Below are positions 3,096-50,760 of a stretch of 50,760 nt of DNA, piece by piece (positions within the stretch are counted from its first letter, which is position 1; each line of letters begins with the position of its first letter). Under the pieces are notes generated by a model, which saw only the letters and a program-made list of their open reading frames with translations, searched no databases and was not told the origin of the DNA. The position numbers and the translations under genes are program-made. Origin of the DNA: Candidatus Kapaibacterium sp. (lineage in GTDB: Bacteria > Bacteroidota > Ignavibacteria > Kapaibacteriales > UBA4661); assembly GCA_025455065.1 (NCBI GenBank), contig JALONG010000033.1, positions 1-50,760 of the forward strand, in the 5' to 3' direction.

Positions 3096-3209
3096 GCAAA
3101 ACAAGAATTACTACGGACAACATATCAGATTGCTTCCGGGGATGAAGAAGTGAGACATCGGCAATCCAAAAAGTACGGTAGAATTTTCGTATATTTAATG
3201 AGTTGGTGG
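3096..3209 (+). repeat. Direct repeat, copy B (relic of the amidohydrolase tail)
   Basis: Diverged second copy of 1909-2020, starting three bases after the stop of the HEPN-like gene. It no longer belongs to any long reading frame. Both copies carry the TATATTTA block (1999-2006 and 3190-3197) that resembles a Bacteroidota -7 element, so each may also supply a promoter for the accessory gene that follows. Confidence 0.75.
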
Positions 3210-18326: not shown

Positions 18327-18346
18327 ATTTGATGTATTGACTAGTT

Positions 18347-18448
18347 ATACCAAATTGAGTTAATAATTGTGCATTTGAATAACTTCAACGCTAGTAAATA
18401 ATGGGCTTAAGCACCTTATTATGCACACACATCAACTTAAATTGGTAT
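18347..18448. mobile_element. Short terminal-inverted-repeat (MITE-like) element
   Basis: About 102 bp bounded by ATACCAAATTGAGTTAATAA (left) and the complement of ATACCAATTTAAGTTGATGT (right); the terminal 28 bases of each side are related. Both termini abut TTA. The left terminus recurs with 26 of 28 matches at 50665-50692. It encodes nothing and ends 10 bp after the susD stop. Confidence 0.65.
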
Positions 18449-18458
18449 TAAGCCAAAT

Positions 18459-45151: not shown

Positions 45152-45907
45152 TCAACGCAAACGGAACACAATCGGAATACTTACCCAGCAGTCAATGGGT
45201 TGGTTATTCTGAATCGCCGGGGTAAAGACGGAACTCATCACTGCTTTGATAGCAGCGTCGTTCAGCAAGTCGGAATCGGTTGACTCGACCAAGTGCTTTT
45301 TCGGAACGCCGTTTTTACCGACCAATACGCGGATATTTACTTTTCCTTCGATACCGGCACGTTTTGCGAGGTCAGGATAAACCACTTTTCTCTGCAATTC
45401 TTTGATGTCAATATACGGTTCTTTTTCTACGGGAACGAAGTCGTATGCGCTTGGTTCGTCTTCACGAACTTCGGTATCAACGTCGGAAGCCAAGCCGAGA
45501 TAGCCTGTGTCATTGCCGTCGCCGCCCGTTGTGCTGGCGCGTGAGATTTCGTCCACATTCGCAAAGTCCTTGACATCCGGTGCAATAAGAGCATCCGGCA
45601 CAGGCACAGGCGTACCTGCACGTGCAGCAGGTCCGGGAGCCGTTGTTGGCGGCGGAGGCGGTGCTGCTTCTGTCTGTGTCGGCGGCGGCGGCAAATTGGT
45701 CAGTTTCATTTTGTTAATCGGCGGTCCTTTTTTGATTCCGGCTGCACTTGCAACGAGAAACAGTGAATATCCGCCAATAAGCAGAATGAGTAACAACAAT
45801 GCCGCAATAAAACCACGCTGTGTAGCGCGTGGAATATACGCCTTCAACTCTTGCGCTCCGTAATGCAATTCTTGTACGGGATCTGCCGCTACATTTGCTG
45901 TTGCCAT
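45152..45907 (-). CDS. tonB: TonB-family energy transducer
   Basis: A 251-residue TonB-like protein linking the ExbB/ExbD motor to outer-membrane receptors such as the SusC-type protein. It has an N-terminal cytoplasmic stretch (~30 residues), one membrane anchor (GFIAALLLLILLIGGYSLFL), a proline-rich linker (NLPPPPTQTEAAPPPPPTTA) and a C-terminal TonB domain (VVYPDLAKRAGIEGKVNIRV; VFTPAIQNNQPIDCWVSIPI). The ATG at 45907 is chosen, as the frame upstream to 46021 has no homology. Confidence 0.93.
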   Translation of the reverse strand: MATANVAADPVQELHYGAQELKAYIPRATQRGFIAALLLLILLIGGYSLFLVASAAGIKKGPPINKMKLTNLPPPPTQTEAAPPPPPTTAPGPAARAGTPVPVPDALIAPDVKDFANVDEISRASTTGGDGNDTGYLGLASDVDTEVREDEPSAYDFVPVEKEPYIDIKELQRKVVYPDLAKRAGIEGKVNIRVLVGKNGVPKKHLVESTDSDLLNDAAIKAVMSSVFTPAIQNNQPIDCWVSIPIVFRLR

Positions 45908-46031
45908 AGCATTACGAAAATAGTGAGTGAAATAAATAATTTTTATACCAAAAATTTGTCTGCCAACCATGTTTTGAAGCGCTGTGCAAGATGATTGTTT
46001 GTGCAAGATGATTATATCCAAGACAAACAGA

Positions 46032-46589
46032 TTACAACGGCTTCAAATCTTCTTTATCTTCATCGGTAAGCGGCGTAAGAGCGAATTTACGCTCACGCTT
46101 CATACCTTTTGCCGAGAGTCGCTGGGTAATTTCTGTTTCGGCGATATTAAGTTCGTCGAGCAGTTTGATGACCAATTCGTAAGGCACTTGGTTTGAAATG
46201 CGCAAAGAAACAATAAGTTTGTTCTCAAGGCGCATATTTTCGTTAATTGAGAGTGCTTTTACGTCTTTAAGCGCGACTTTTTCCGGCGGGTTTGTTTTTT
46301 TGTCACCAATAAACTTAAAAATCTGACCGTCATCACGGACCAGAATCGTGAGAAGTTCCGACTGCTTTACTTCGACGTTTTCGGTTTCCGGCGGCACGGA
46401 CATTTCCATTGTTTGTGGGGTTGTCAGTGTTGTCGAAAGCATGAAAAACGTTAAAAGCAGAAACGCAATATCCACAAGCGGGGTCATGTCGAGGACGAAG
46501 CCAACGCGCTTTTTCTTTTTGCGCACGGTAGCAAACGAACCACGTTTGACTTTGGGTTGGACTGATAGTCCACCACCACCACCACCCAT
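46032..46589 (-). CDS. exbD: ExbD-family biopolymer transport protein (second copy)
   Basis: A 185-residue ExbD-type protein: Gly-rich start (MGGGGGGLSVQ), a basic stretch (KKKKRV), one membrane helix with the proton-coupling aspartate (VGFVLDMTPLVDIAFLLLTF), and a C-terminal periplasmic domain that ends KEDLKPL. It is the second of two adjacent exbD genes; together with ExbB they drive TonB. The membrane segments of the two copies are nearly identical; the periplasmic parts are different. Confidence 0.93.
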   Translation of the reverse strand: MGGGGGGLSVQPKVKRGSFATVRKKKKRVGFVLDMTPLVDIAFLLLTFFMLSTTLTTPQTMEMSVPPETENVEVKQSELLTILVRDDGQIFKFIGDKKTNPPEKVALKDVKALSINENMRLENKLIVSLRISNQVPYELVIKLLDELNIAETEITQRLSAKGMKRERKFALTPLTDEDKEDLKPL

Positions 46590-46731
46590 AGCGTGTCTCC
46601 TTCTGAAAATCTGTAAAAGAAATTGTGTCTTAGTAAGTATGCCTTGAAGAAGTTTTGAAAAAGGTAAAGTGTCCGAAATAGCGCATCACTATTGATGTTT
46701 TATCCCTTATCTTCTTTGCCTCATTCCTTCT

Positions 46732-47247
46732 TTAACTCGGTCGGTCGGTAACGAAATTAAAAATCGTCGCATTACTTTTCCGCATCACGGTTGTCAAATC
46801 CTCTATCCATTTGTATTTAACGCGCTTGTCGGCATCAATAGCAAATCTCATGCGGATATTCACGGAACGTGTTTGCTTCAAAATTGCTTCCAACACATTC
46901 AAATCCGTGATCTTCAGAATAACCTTTTGACGGGCTTCGTCGGGGATTTGAACTTTATCCGAATTATAGACAATTTTACGGTCTTGCTCGTTGGAGAGCG
47001 AATAATAATACGCTGTGTCATTCGACACGGTATCAATACCGATTTTAATCATCGCCAAGTCTTTTTCCGGTACTTTCGATGTGTCCGCCGAAGCCATTGG
47101 GCGTTTGATAGTGAATTTCTGCTCGTTTTCAGTGTCCGACTTAAATTTTGCCGTAAACATAAAAAACGTCAAAAGCAAAAATGCAATATCCACAAGCGGA
47201 GTCATGTCCAGAACAAAGCCGACTCGTTTTTTCTTAATTTTACTCAT
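46732..47247 (-). CDS. exbD: ExbD-family biopolymer transport protein (first copy)
   Basis: A 171-residue ExbD-type protein with the same anchor (KKKRVGFVLDMTPLVDIAF) and conserved aspartate as its neighbour, followed by a different periplasmic domain (FTIKRPMASADTSKVPEKDL, then IRMRFAIDADKRVKYKWIED). It begins 48 bp after exbB. Having two exbD genes in tandem is usual in Bacteroidota TonB operons. Confidence 0.93.
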   Translation of the reverse strand: MSKIKKKRVGFVLDMTPLVDIAFLLLTFFMFTAKFKSDTENEQKFTIKRPMASADTSKVPEKDLAMIKIGIDTVSNDTAYYYSLSNEQDRKIVYNSDKVQIPDEARQKVILKITDLNVLEAILKQTRSVNIRMRFAIDADKRVKYKWIEDLTTVMRKSNATIFNFVTDRPS

Positions 47248-47295
47248 GCTATCTCCTTAGTAAATTGAGGCTTACAAAGCCGAAAATTGAGGAGA

Positions 47296-48078
47296 TTATT
47301 TCTTAACTTTAACGGTCAAAATTTCCGTTACGCTCAGGATTGCTTCATCAATGAGGTAGGTGAAGTTGTCCACGCGCGTTGTGAAGATATTAAAGAACAC
47401 GATACAAATAACAGCGCCGATAAGACCGCCTGCTGTGTTGTAAAGCGCTTCCGAAATTCCGATAGAAAGCGATTGAGCCGAAACCGTACCGCCTGCGCCA
47501 AGTGCCGCAAACGCACGAATCATACCCAAAGTTGTTCCCAAAAGTCCCACCATTGTTGCGATAGAAGCAATCGTCGAAAGAATAACCATGTTCTTTTCGA
47601 GAAGCGGTGTTTCGAGGTTTGTTTGTTCGTCAATAGCACGCTTCACTTCAAGCATTTTCTTTTCCGGATCAAGACGGTCACTGTCTTTTACGGCTTGATA
47701 TTTTTCCAGACCAGCACGGATAATATTTGCAAGACTGCCGCGCTGCGTGTCGCAAGCAGCCAAAGCACCGTTAATATCGCCGTCTTCAAGCAAGGTCTGA
47801 ATTTTCTTGATGAAGGTCGGCATTGCCTCTTTGCCTTGCGCTTTGCTGAGAGAAAGCGCTCGCTCAATCACAAAGGTAATGGCAATCATAATAAACGCCA
47901 ACAACAACGCTACAAGCGGACCGCCTGTGTGAATTGTACCCAAGATATTGCCCGGCAGCGGCTCATGGCGGATTGCGCCGTCTTTAAAGTTTGCCGGATT
48001 GCCCATTACGAACCACCAAATAGCGAAACCGATGATGATTTCCGCCGTCATGATGATGACGTTCATAGCATTTTTCAT
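47296..48078 (-). CDS. exbB: ExbB/MotA/TolQ-family proton channel
   Basis: A 260-residue ExbB-type protein: an N-terminal membrane segment, the LLAFIMIAITFVIERALSLS helix, a cytoplasmic helical insert (ALAACDTQRGSLANIIRAGL), and the conserved late pair of helices (TIASIATMVGLLGTTLGMIR; IGISEALYNTAGGLIGAVIC). It uses the proton gradient to energise TonB with ExbD. It follows the STAS gene by 38 bp and heads the exb/tonB genes. Confidence 0.94.
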   Translation of the reverse strand: MKNAMNVIIMTAEIIIGFAIWWFVMGNPANFKDGAIRHEPLPGNILGTIHTGGPLVALLLAFIMIAITFVIERALSLSKAQGKEAMPTFIKKIQTLLEDGDINGALAACDTQRGSLANIIRAGLEKYQAVKDSDRLDPEKKMLEVKRAIDEQTNLETPLLEKNMVILSTIASIATMVGLLGTTLGMIRAFAALGAGGTVSAQSLSIGISEALYNTAGGLIGAVICIVFFNIFTTRVDNFTYLIDEAILSVTEILTVKVKK

Positions 48079-48116
48079 GTAAAAAACTCCCGAAAATTGA
48101 GTAAAAAGGTTATGGA

Positions 48117-48464
48117 TTAAAGAGAAAATTGATTGATTGCTTCTTCAAGCGTTGGGAACATTTCAAAAACAAGATTGAGTTTGGTGATAACAAAAATGTT
48201 CTCAATGTTTTTGCTGATGTTACAAAGGGCAATACGACCACCGCGTTTGGAAAAGTTTGCGTGCGCGGAAATAAATACTCCCAATGCTGTTGAGTTCAAG
48301 TACGAAACCTCGTGTAAATCTACCGCTACAAGTGGCTTGTCGTGCTGCATGAGATTTTTGAATTCTTCGCGCAGTGCATCTGTTTCATCACCACCAATAA
48401 ACTGTCCGCGTATGTGAATTGTTGTTATTTTGTCTTGTTGCAGGACGGTAATTTGTTCGGTCAT
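48117..48464 (-). CDS. STAS-domain anti-sigma-factor antagonist-like protein
   Basis: A 115-residue single STAS domain, like SpoIIAA-type anti-anti-sigma factors. The phosphorylation helix is present in VSYLNSTALGVFISAHANF, with serine ~58 at the site phosphorylated in SpoIIAA. Typical start (ITVLQQDKITTIHIRG) and end (VFEMFPTLEEAINQF). It is the first gene of the TonB operon. No partner kinase or PP2C phosphatase is in the window, so its target is unknown; regulation of the operon or a structural role is possible. Confidence 0.9.
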   Translation of the reverse strand: MTEQITVLQQDKITTIHIRGQFIGGDETDALREEFKNLMQHDKPLVAVDLHEVSYLNSTALGVFISAHANFSKRGGRIALCNISKNIENIFVITKLNLVFEMFPTLEEAINQFSL

Positions 48465-48794: not shown

Positions 48795-48798
48795 TCAT
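48685..48798 (-). CDS. Possible 37-residue protein overlapping the caspase stop
   Basis: Reading starts MKKYYADEEIRNDHIKRLFH and ends KKLCLVA; its ATG overlaps the TGA of the caspase gene as ATGA. It is rich in charged residues and has no recognisable family. Translational coupling would be expected if it is real; it may equally be chance. Confidence 0.3.
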   Translation of the reverse strand: MKKYYADEEIRNDHIKRLFHRVSPEFSALRKKLCLVA

Positions 48799-50639
48799 TG
48801 TACGCGCTTCCGTACTTCCTGAAGCAGTGTTTTTGTCAATTCCTGCACATTTCCTGCCGCCCCTTTCACCGAAAACGTTACGCCATCTTCCTCGCCTTTC
48901 CGCAAAACCGCCGACACCGTGATTTCATCACCCTTCACGGCATACCGCCCGTTGAGCGAATACGCACCCGGGAACTCCGGCGCATCCAAATACACCAGCC
49001 ACGCCTCAAACGGGTTCACTGCCGCACGGTAGGTTACGCCGCGCAATGCTTCGTTCACGCTTTTGCCGAAATTCAGTTGGTCGAACATTTTGCGCTCGTC
49101 TTGGAAATTGCACCGCACAAACAGCGGCTTGGCATCGGCAAGCGGAATCGCCTTTGCTTCGGCATCCGTAATCAAGCCAATGTCGAAACTGCCCCCGCCA
49201 AAGGGTGAGCAAACTTGCGGCTTCTGCACACGCCCTATATCCCGCGCCAACTCCGGCACACGGTCAGCGGCAAATTCAAAAAGCTGCTTTATATCCACAA
49301 ATTGATTATCCCTGAGCGCACCGCCTTTCATGCCCATAAGCAGGCTGTACGTCAGCAAACCTTGTCCATATTTGCTGGCTTCGTAGCTGACGGCATTCGA
49401 TGCGCAGCCCGAAATCACGTGCAATCCCGCACGGTCTTTCATGCGCATCATCGCGCGAAGCTGGCTGGACGGCACATCCCGCGAGGCGAGCAGATTTTCT
49501 ACGGCTTTCCCCGATGCACACGCATCCAGCGCAAGCGTCTGTTTGCGGGCGGGAATAGCCTTCATCAAATCCGTGAGTTCGCGGCTGGAAAGGGCGACAC
49601 TCGTGCGCAAGGCGGCATCGGCAAATTTCTCGTCGTCGCCCAAGCGGGCATCTGCGGTGAGGTAATACCAATCCCCGTCCTGACCGCCCCAGTTTATGCC
49701 GTGTCCCGTCAGATAGACCAGCAAAATGTCATTCGCCGAAGCTCTTGTTTGCACATCCTTCAGTGCTGCCACGATATTTGCCTTCGTTGTGCGGGTCTTG
49801 CTTTGCGTGGAATCGGGCTTTGCGGTCAAAAGCGTGATATGCACACGGTCTGCTCCCAAAAGCCGCTCTCCGGCTATGCGCACGGCTTTGGCAATCTGCT
49901 CGGCATCACTCGCGGCAAAGGGTAAATCCAGTTCGCTGCCTTGATAATCGGACGTGCCGCCCACGACCGCGTAGAGATGTGGTGCGCTTTGCAAACGTTC
50001 TCCGGGTGCTTGAAACTCAACACGGGTTGTGCGGCTGAGTACGGCATTTTCGGCGTTGAAGGCGCGTACTTCCAGCGTGTTGGTGGTGCCGGGCAGCAGC
50101 AGGCGGTTTCCGTCAAGATTAACCGTGCAGATAAGTTCGGAAGCGGTGTTGAAAGCGCCATTGGAAGCAGACTTCGGGCGAATATCATCGCTAACTTCCT
50201 TCCCGTTCAGCCACACGGGAACGCGCCCGAAACCACCACCTTGGTTGGTGAGTTTGACGGTAAAGGTGAGTTCCGAAGCGTTGTTTGAGGGGTTAGCCGC
50301 CAAACCACGTGCCGTTGCTTTATTGGACGAAGGTTTTGGTTTTGTTTGTTGCTTACCATCAGGCGTGGCGGCTTGTTTGGTGCCGCGTTCAATATCCACA
50401 CGCGGGTAGAGCCGCACCGAATCAAAGCGCTCAATATCGCGGAGCGGCTCCTTGTTGAAGCCCATGAGTTTGGAAAGCAAGCCCGGCTCGTAATAGCGCT
50501 CTTTGAGCTGCTCCAATTCTATCGGTTCATTCCCCACCACAAAATGCAAATAGCGCAAGCCACCTTCTGAGCCGTCGAAGCGCCCGTCCGGGGTGGTTAC
50601 CGCCCAGTTGGTTGCATCAAAGTTGAACAAACTGCACAT
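48795..50639 (-). CDS. Caspase-like (C14) peptidase, 5'-truncated
   Basis: A metacaspase-type peptidase of 614 residues as read from the first ATG. The catalytic histidine is in LVYLTGHGINWGG and the cysteine in LALDACASGKA. Before them, WAVTTPDGRFDGSEGGLRYL and KERYYEPGLLSKLMGFNKEP are typical of bacterial WD40-caspase proteins, in which these follow N-terminal WD40 repeats. Here homology continues upstream of the ATG in the same frame (IIDAATGKQ, codons 50663-50640) but meets a TAA at 50673-50675 lying in a sequence that matches a mobile-element end. So the propeller part is missing and the protein is probably not made intact. Catalytic part itself undamaged. Confidence 0.8.
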   Translation of the reverse strand: MCSLFNFDATNWAVTTPDGRFDGSEGGLRYLHFVVGNEPIELEQLKERYYEPGLLSKLMGFNKEPLRDIERFDSVRLYPRVDIERGTKQAATPDGKQQTKPKPSSNKATARGLAANPSNNASELTFTVKLTNQGGGFGRVPVWLNGKEVSDDIRPKSASNGAFNTASELICTVNLDGNRLLLPGTTNTLEVRAFNAENAVLSRTTRVEFQAPGERLQSAPHLYAVVGGTSDYQGSELDLPFAASDAEQIAKAVRIAGERLLGADRVHITLLTAKPDSTQSKTRTTKANIVAALKDVQTRASANDILLVYLTGHGINWGGQDGDWYYLTADARLGDDEKFADAALRTSVALSSRELTDLMKAIPARKQTLALDACASGKAVENLLASRDVPSSQLRAMMRMKDRAGLHVISGCASNAVSYEASKYGQGLLTYSLLMGMKGGALRDNQFVDIKQLFEFAADRVPELARDIGRVQKPQVCSPFGGGSFDIGLITDAEAKAIPLADAKPLFVRCNFQDERKMFDQLNFGKSVNEALRGVTYRAAVNPFEAWLVYLDAPEFPGAYSLNGRYAVKGDEITVSAVLRKGEEDGVTFSVKGAAGNVQELTKTLLQEVRKRVQ

Positions 50640-50664
50640 CTGTTTTCCAGTAGCAGCATCAATA

Positions 50665-50692
50665 ATACCAATTTAAGTTAATAATTGTGCAT
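50665..50692. repeat. Mobile-element terminus inside the caspase gene
   Basis: 28 bases beginning ATACCAATTTAAGTTAATAA match the left terminus of the element at 18347 in 26 positions and its right terminus in 24. On the caspase strand it brings an in-frame TAA (50673-50675). The remainder of the element lies to the right. Confidence 0.7.
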
Positions 50693-50760
50693 TAACAATC
50701 TCCATAACCCAATCAGGACTAACAAGAGAGCGTATAATGTCATTGCTGATGCCCTCTACT
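50673..50760 (-). CDS. C-terminal fragment of an unknown ORF (transposase candidate)
   Basis: The minus frame is open from the window edge for 28 codons and ends at the TAA inside the element terminus. The residues IIRSLVSPDWVMEIVNAQLL do not resemble WD40 repeats or any family I recognise. A transposase running out to its own terminal repeat is a natural explanation but is not shown. Confidence 0.35.
   Translation of the reverse strand, partial: VEGISNDIIRSLVSPDWVMEIVNAQLLT

Follow-up and report, generated by a model that had tools for sequence, protein, structure and literature searches.

The stretch of DNA analysed here (the window, 50,760 nucleotides) is the whole of contig C89, which ends at 50760, from a Candidatus Kapaibacterium genome of 5.6 Mb in 131 contigs. 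Near its right end, on the reverse strand, lies an open reading frame of 614 aa counted from the first remaining ATG (48795-50639). It contains a Peptidase_C14 domain at residues 223-478 (E 3.2e-13), which scores 50.4 bits against the curated PF00656 cut-off of 21.4. The LTGHG and DACASG motifs are invariant in all three aligned sequences, and we take them to be the His and Cys of the predicted catalytic pair. By sequence, the nearest solved structure is Metacaspase-4, a weak match (E 2.5e-4), and the protein scored 63.5 bits with the NCBIfam model NF047832 for EACC1-associated caspases, below its cut-off of 140. Seven genes downstream match STAS, MotA_ExbB, ExbD (twice), TonB_C, PBP_like_2 and TPR; those at 45152-48464 (STAS, ExbB-like, two ExbD-like and TonB-like) lie on the same strand as the caspase gene. 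PADLOC matches were weak, namely "caspase" for the protein in the window (E 9.4e-8) and for its orthologue in a genome of the same genus, G006 (E 1.8e-6), and "HEAT-ARM_XIII" for the latter (E 1.2e-8). Given these weak matches and the types of the downstream genes, we do not claim a defence system.

The caspase frame stays open upstream of its first ATG. The bases at 50640-50662 (reverse strand) are native to the gene: they supply the end of an Ile codon followed by DAATGKQ, align with the G006 orthologue around residues 640-647 and correspond, by eye, to the last propeller blade of that protein. The frame continues through IGIIDAATGKQ up to a TAA at 50675-50673, and 5′ of this stop it reads VEGISNDIIRSLVSPDWVMEIVNAQLLT. 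The native bases are preceded by TTA on the gene strand (50663-50665), and the final 95 bases of the contig (50666-50760) form the right-hand end of an insertion sequence, with a terminal inverted repeat at 50666-50692. An earlier note on this DNA, made from the letters, had described the IIDAATGKQ codons ahead of the ATG at 50639 and a stop within sequence resembling the terminal repeats at 18347-18448. Both descriptions hold, the resemblance amounting to 93% over 29 bases when compared with 18347-18375. The note was mistaken in assigning the peptide that ends in VMEIVNAQLLT and a stop to another frame, since it lies in the caspase frame with one TAA between. The sequence at 50673-50759 (reverse strand) encodes the C-terminus of a transposase, its last 28 codons plus the TAA stop, with 75% identity over 28 aa to the end of an IS630-type transposase in the congener G002. 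Transposase tail, single TAA and caspase thus share one frame and are co-directional.

The missing propeller was found elsewhere in the same genome. Using the first 652 residues of the 1,261-aa G006 orthologue as a query, we obtained a single long match, on contig C3 (9772-11670; 50% identity, 676 bits), located at the left end of the element, while the other 14 matches (on C83, C38, C101, C22 and C111) scored at most 71.1 bits. The C3 open reading frame comprises 641 aa with WD40 repeats, starts with MKLPSLLAVVICISFVAPVFAQ, which is signal-peptide-like by eye, and terminates with ENASTQIIPI and a stop, the last residues being encoded by the left end of the element. TTA forms the last three bases before the element on C3 and is the partner of the TTA at 50663-50665. 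The conjecture of the earlier note that a transposon had cut the caspase gene is therefore borne out by a WD40 half that ends at the other terminal repeat, and the target duplication of TTA/TAA for which it advised looking was seen as the same TTA at both the C3 and the C89 junction. A caspase query likewise gave one strong match in this genome, C89 at the right end of the element, the next best reaching 70.6 bits. The genome also carries a second WD40-caspase gene on C38, a 1,345-aa open reading frame with 27% identity over residues 171-491.

Comparison with orthologues places the seam precisely. The G006 orthologue is uninterrupted, with an N-terminal propeller, a C-terminal caspase and a signal-peptide-like start. 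When the two halves were aligned to it separately, they covered residues 21-640 (WD40) and 637-1261 (caspase) and met at 640/641, the small overlap at 637-640 resulting from element bases included in the caspase-half query. At the seam, STQI plus IDAATG stands against SILIVDAATG of G006, which puts the insertion just before the caspase part. Frame and length of the joined halves fit G006 when the shared TTA is counted once, so that we read TTA as a 3-bp target duplication. Matches of any kind to the gene occurred in 14 of the 41 genomes searched (own genome included), and close orthologues (79%) only in G006 and G002, which belong to the same genus, represented by eight genomes including the present one. 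The caspase half aligns over its full length to both at 79-80% identity. The G002 orthologue is open across the caspase and most of the propeller, but its first part lies in another frame; the frame change near residue 115 (L062, about 3100-3125) reflects either an assembly error or a second disrupted orthologue. When named genomes were scanned, an uninterrupted 1,256-aa homologue also appeared in a Gemmataceae genome, with 46% identity in the best segment. This full-length WD40-caspase (L152) spans the whole caspase half and is close for a protein from a different phylum.

These homologues also bear on the start of the caspase half. The G006 protein starts 647 residues upstream of the position of the window's first ATG, which is occupied by Leu in G006, in G002 and, by eye, in the Gemmataceae homologue, and the ATG at 50639 is therefore not the native start. 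Homologues beginning at this ATG, which the earlier note had named as evidence against a disruption, were not seen; both the orthologue and the distant homologue run through it with a Leu. We accordingly dismissed the idea that the gene natively encodes a propeller-less caspase.

The repeat at the end of C89 belongs to a multi-copy element. Its right end was found at at least 16 contig ends (C89 included, and thus at least 15 further ones) with 98-100% identity, which argues against a chance match. The element takes up the last 91-95 bases of these contigs, or 138 in C122. A search for the opposite end, starting from a candidate on C32, placed the left end at at least 17 contig ends (query included), also with 98-100% identity. 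Since each search scored 40 out of about 100 candidates, the counts may be lower bounds. The two ends carry terminal inverted repeats, a feature tested for the IS630 family, with 23 of 27 bases in common. All 33 listed ends begin with TACCAATTT and are flanked by TAA or TTA, the left ends comprising 11 TAA and 6 TTA and the right ends 10 TAA and 6 TTA when read on the transposase strand. TWA occurs at 2.3% of positions in the window.

Contig C89 stops at 50760 because the assembly broke in this multi-copy element, whose copies are nearly identical where seen; read length presumably caused the break. An alternative would be an assembly artefact in which the assembler mistakenly attached a repeat end to intact genes. 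Repeats at contig ends, mostly 91-95 bases deep, are indeed what an assembler leaves behind. However, both halves stop at the same orthologue codon, each at a proper element end with TTA, and a random chimaera is not expected to yield such junctions on both sides, which leaves this explanation hardly credible.

The nature of the element follows from its relatives. A transposase query against the own genome gave 12 matches, 11 of which are C-terminal tails of 28-42 aa, 74-75% identical to the G002 relative, the remaining one, on C55, showing 35% identity over 72 aa; the body of the element was not found in this assembly. The partial G002 relative (224 aa from the C-terminal part) lies close to where its contig starts; it matches DDE_3 (E 1.8e-25) and scores 135.3 bits with the IS630 transposase equivalog, for which the cut-off is 100 and which scores the protein only. 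Another relative, at the start of a contig of G001, has a span of about 1.17 kb between its two ends, and its transposase is encoded by two overlapping frames connected through a run of A. The left ends in the present genome finish at ATGCGCC or within a few bases of it on either side, and resemble the start of the G001 transposase, which indicates that the transposase points from the WD40 side to the caspase side. The transposase that the earlier note had suggested looking for to the right of the window is present in relatives from congeners, where it is of IS630 type, while in this genome only the C-terminal tail was recovered.

With the IS630 family the element shares the DDE_3/IS630 equivalog transposase (from the congener relative), terminal inverted repeats and a T/A-rich target. 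It differs in its target duplication: PMC8533490 gives TA for the IS630-Tc1-mariner group, and TATA for Sailor, but the 33 listed ends all show TWA in place of a 2-bp TA duplication. Since the duplication departs from that of the group, the label IS630-type refers to the transposase only. According to PMC7386202, pogo-type elements have TAA and TAAA duplications. With TAA, TAAA and TATA known in the group beside TA, a 3-bp TWA duplication in a bacterial IS630-type element would be a modest departure. Titles and the beginnings of abstracts, in a literature coverage that was incomplete, yielded no direct report of a 3-bp duplication, and the part of PMC8944449 at hand has nothing on it.

Miniature relatives show the same pattern. 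A fuzzy search for short elements, which covered the fetched loci rather than the whole genome, identified 13 elements of 90-166 bp with such terminal repeats, 11 in the own genome and two in G006. Identical TAA or TTA on both sides was found for 10 of the 11 own-genome elements, and not for the other one or for either G006 element. The miniature elements of 100-153 bp are those at L013, L020-L022, L025-L028, L031 and L032 and a 100-bp element in the window (18348-18447), which has similar terminal repeats and TTA on both sides (18345-18347 and 18448-18450). Those of at least 123 bp hold a palindrome-like stretch resembling CACAGACATTCTTGTCTGTG. On C101 (L013, 1367-1504) the insertion sequence directly abuts a miniature element, with a TAA common to both, and by eye C125 (L095) and C39 (L016) resemble the two halves of a further miniature element that a copy has interrupted. 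Both the insertion sequence and these miniature elements thus seem to duplicate 3 bp (TWA).

Taken together, we consider it highly probable (about 0.94) that an IS630-type element split a WD40-caspase gene with duplication of TTA. What the assembly shows is two gene halves, two element ends, a TTA at each junction and ends present in many copies; a congener has the orthologue uninterrupted. According to the proposed sequence of events, an insertion sequence whose congener relative measures about 1.17 kb would have transposed into a secreted-looking WD40-caspase gene just before the caspase part, duplicating TTA and leaving two open reading frames: a 641-aa propeller that terminates within codons supplied by the left terminal repeat, and a caspase of 614 aa that lacks a leader. 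One element copy probably still connects C3 with C89, although neither its body nor a physical link was found in the assembly. The shared TTA is weak evidence for this particular pair, because every end has one of just two triplets, TTA or TAA. The two contigs might also have been separated by a rearrangement between element copies, so that the gene halves now lie apart, and at least 17 left and at least 16 right near-identical ends would offer ample substrate for recombination. However, the same TTA stands at both junctions, the halves join at a single orthologue codon and a simple insertion requires fewer events, so we regard such a rearrangement as unlikely.

The insertion most likely abolished the function of the gene, since it left a propeller fragment without a peptidase and a caspase fragment without propeller, leader or native start. 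A leaderless caspase fragment could still be made, for which the sequence features seen offer no support. It is improbable that both halves still serve as separate proteins, with the propeller secreted and the caspase, now leaderless, translated either from the ATG at 50639 or, 33 bases past the transposase stop, by reinitiation. Both open reading frames are open, and the transposase is co-directional and in the caspase frame with one TAA between; yet the orthologues have Leu instead of Met at the ATG position, and the start of G006 with its signal-peptide-like stretch, 647 residues upstream, means that the caspase half has lost its leader. Nor does the low dN/dS help this reading, as it reflects mostly the time before the insertion. 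Still more doubtful is the idea that the insertion rewired the gene into two separate proteins, with the leaderless caspase expressed behind the transposase and possibly a transposase-caspase fusion formed by readthrough over the single TAA.

Judged from the sequences of the halves and element ends, the disruption is probably recent: among the genome matches no internal stop is listed in either half, the element ends are near-identical, and dN/dS of the caspase half against G006 is low (NG86, 0.156/1.527, with synonymous sites near saturation; one pair gave no dS value). Counting against recency, both halves differ somewhat more from G006 and G002 than G006 and G002 differ from one another, with 79.6 and 79.4% identity compared with 83.9% for the caspase half and 49.9 and 51.4% compared with 62.6% for the WD40 half. 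Some relaxed constraint, before or after the insertion, may have acted on both halves.

With its Peptidase_C14 domain and WD40 repeats, the reconstructed gene resembles bacterial metacaspases and WD40 caspase homologues, from which it differs in being split in this genome. According to PMC3501461, WD40 is the domain most often combined with bacterial caspase homologues (73 sequences or 10.9%); a literature search for Kapabacteria and caspase found no reports. In itself the event is unremarkable, a gene disrupted by a jumping element of a common type. If the rewiring of the gene were true, an insertion sequence would have reshaped a gene rather than simply knocked it out. That an IS630-type element and related miniature elements duplicate 3 bp (TWA) would be a small point for transposon classification. 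Moreover, the insertion accounts for both the end of the contig and the truncated look of the caspase gene, and the 614-aa caspase should be annotated as a fragment and not as a propeller-less variant.
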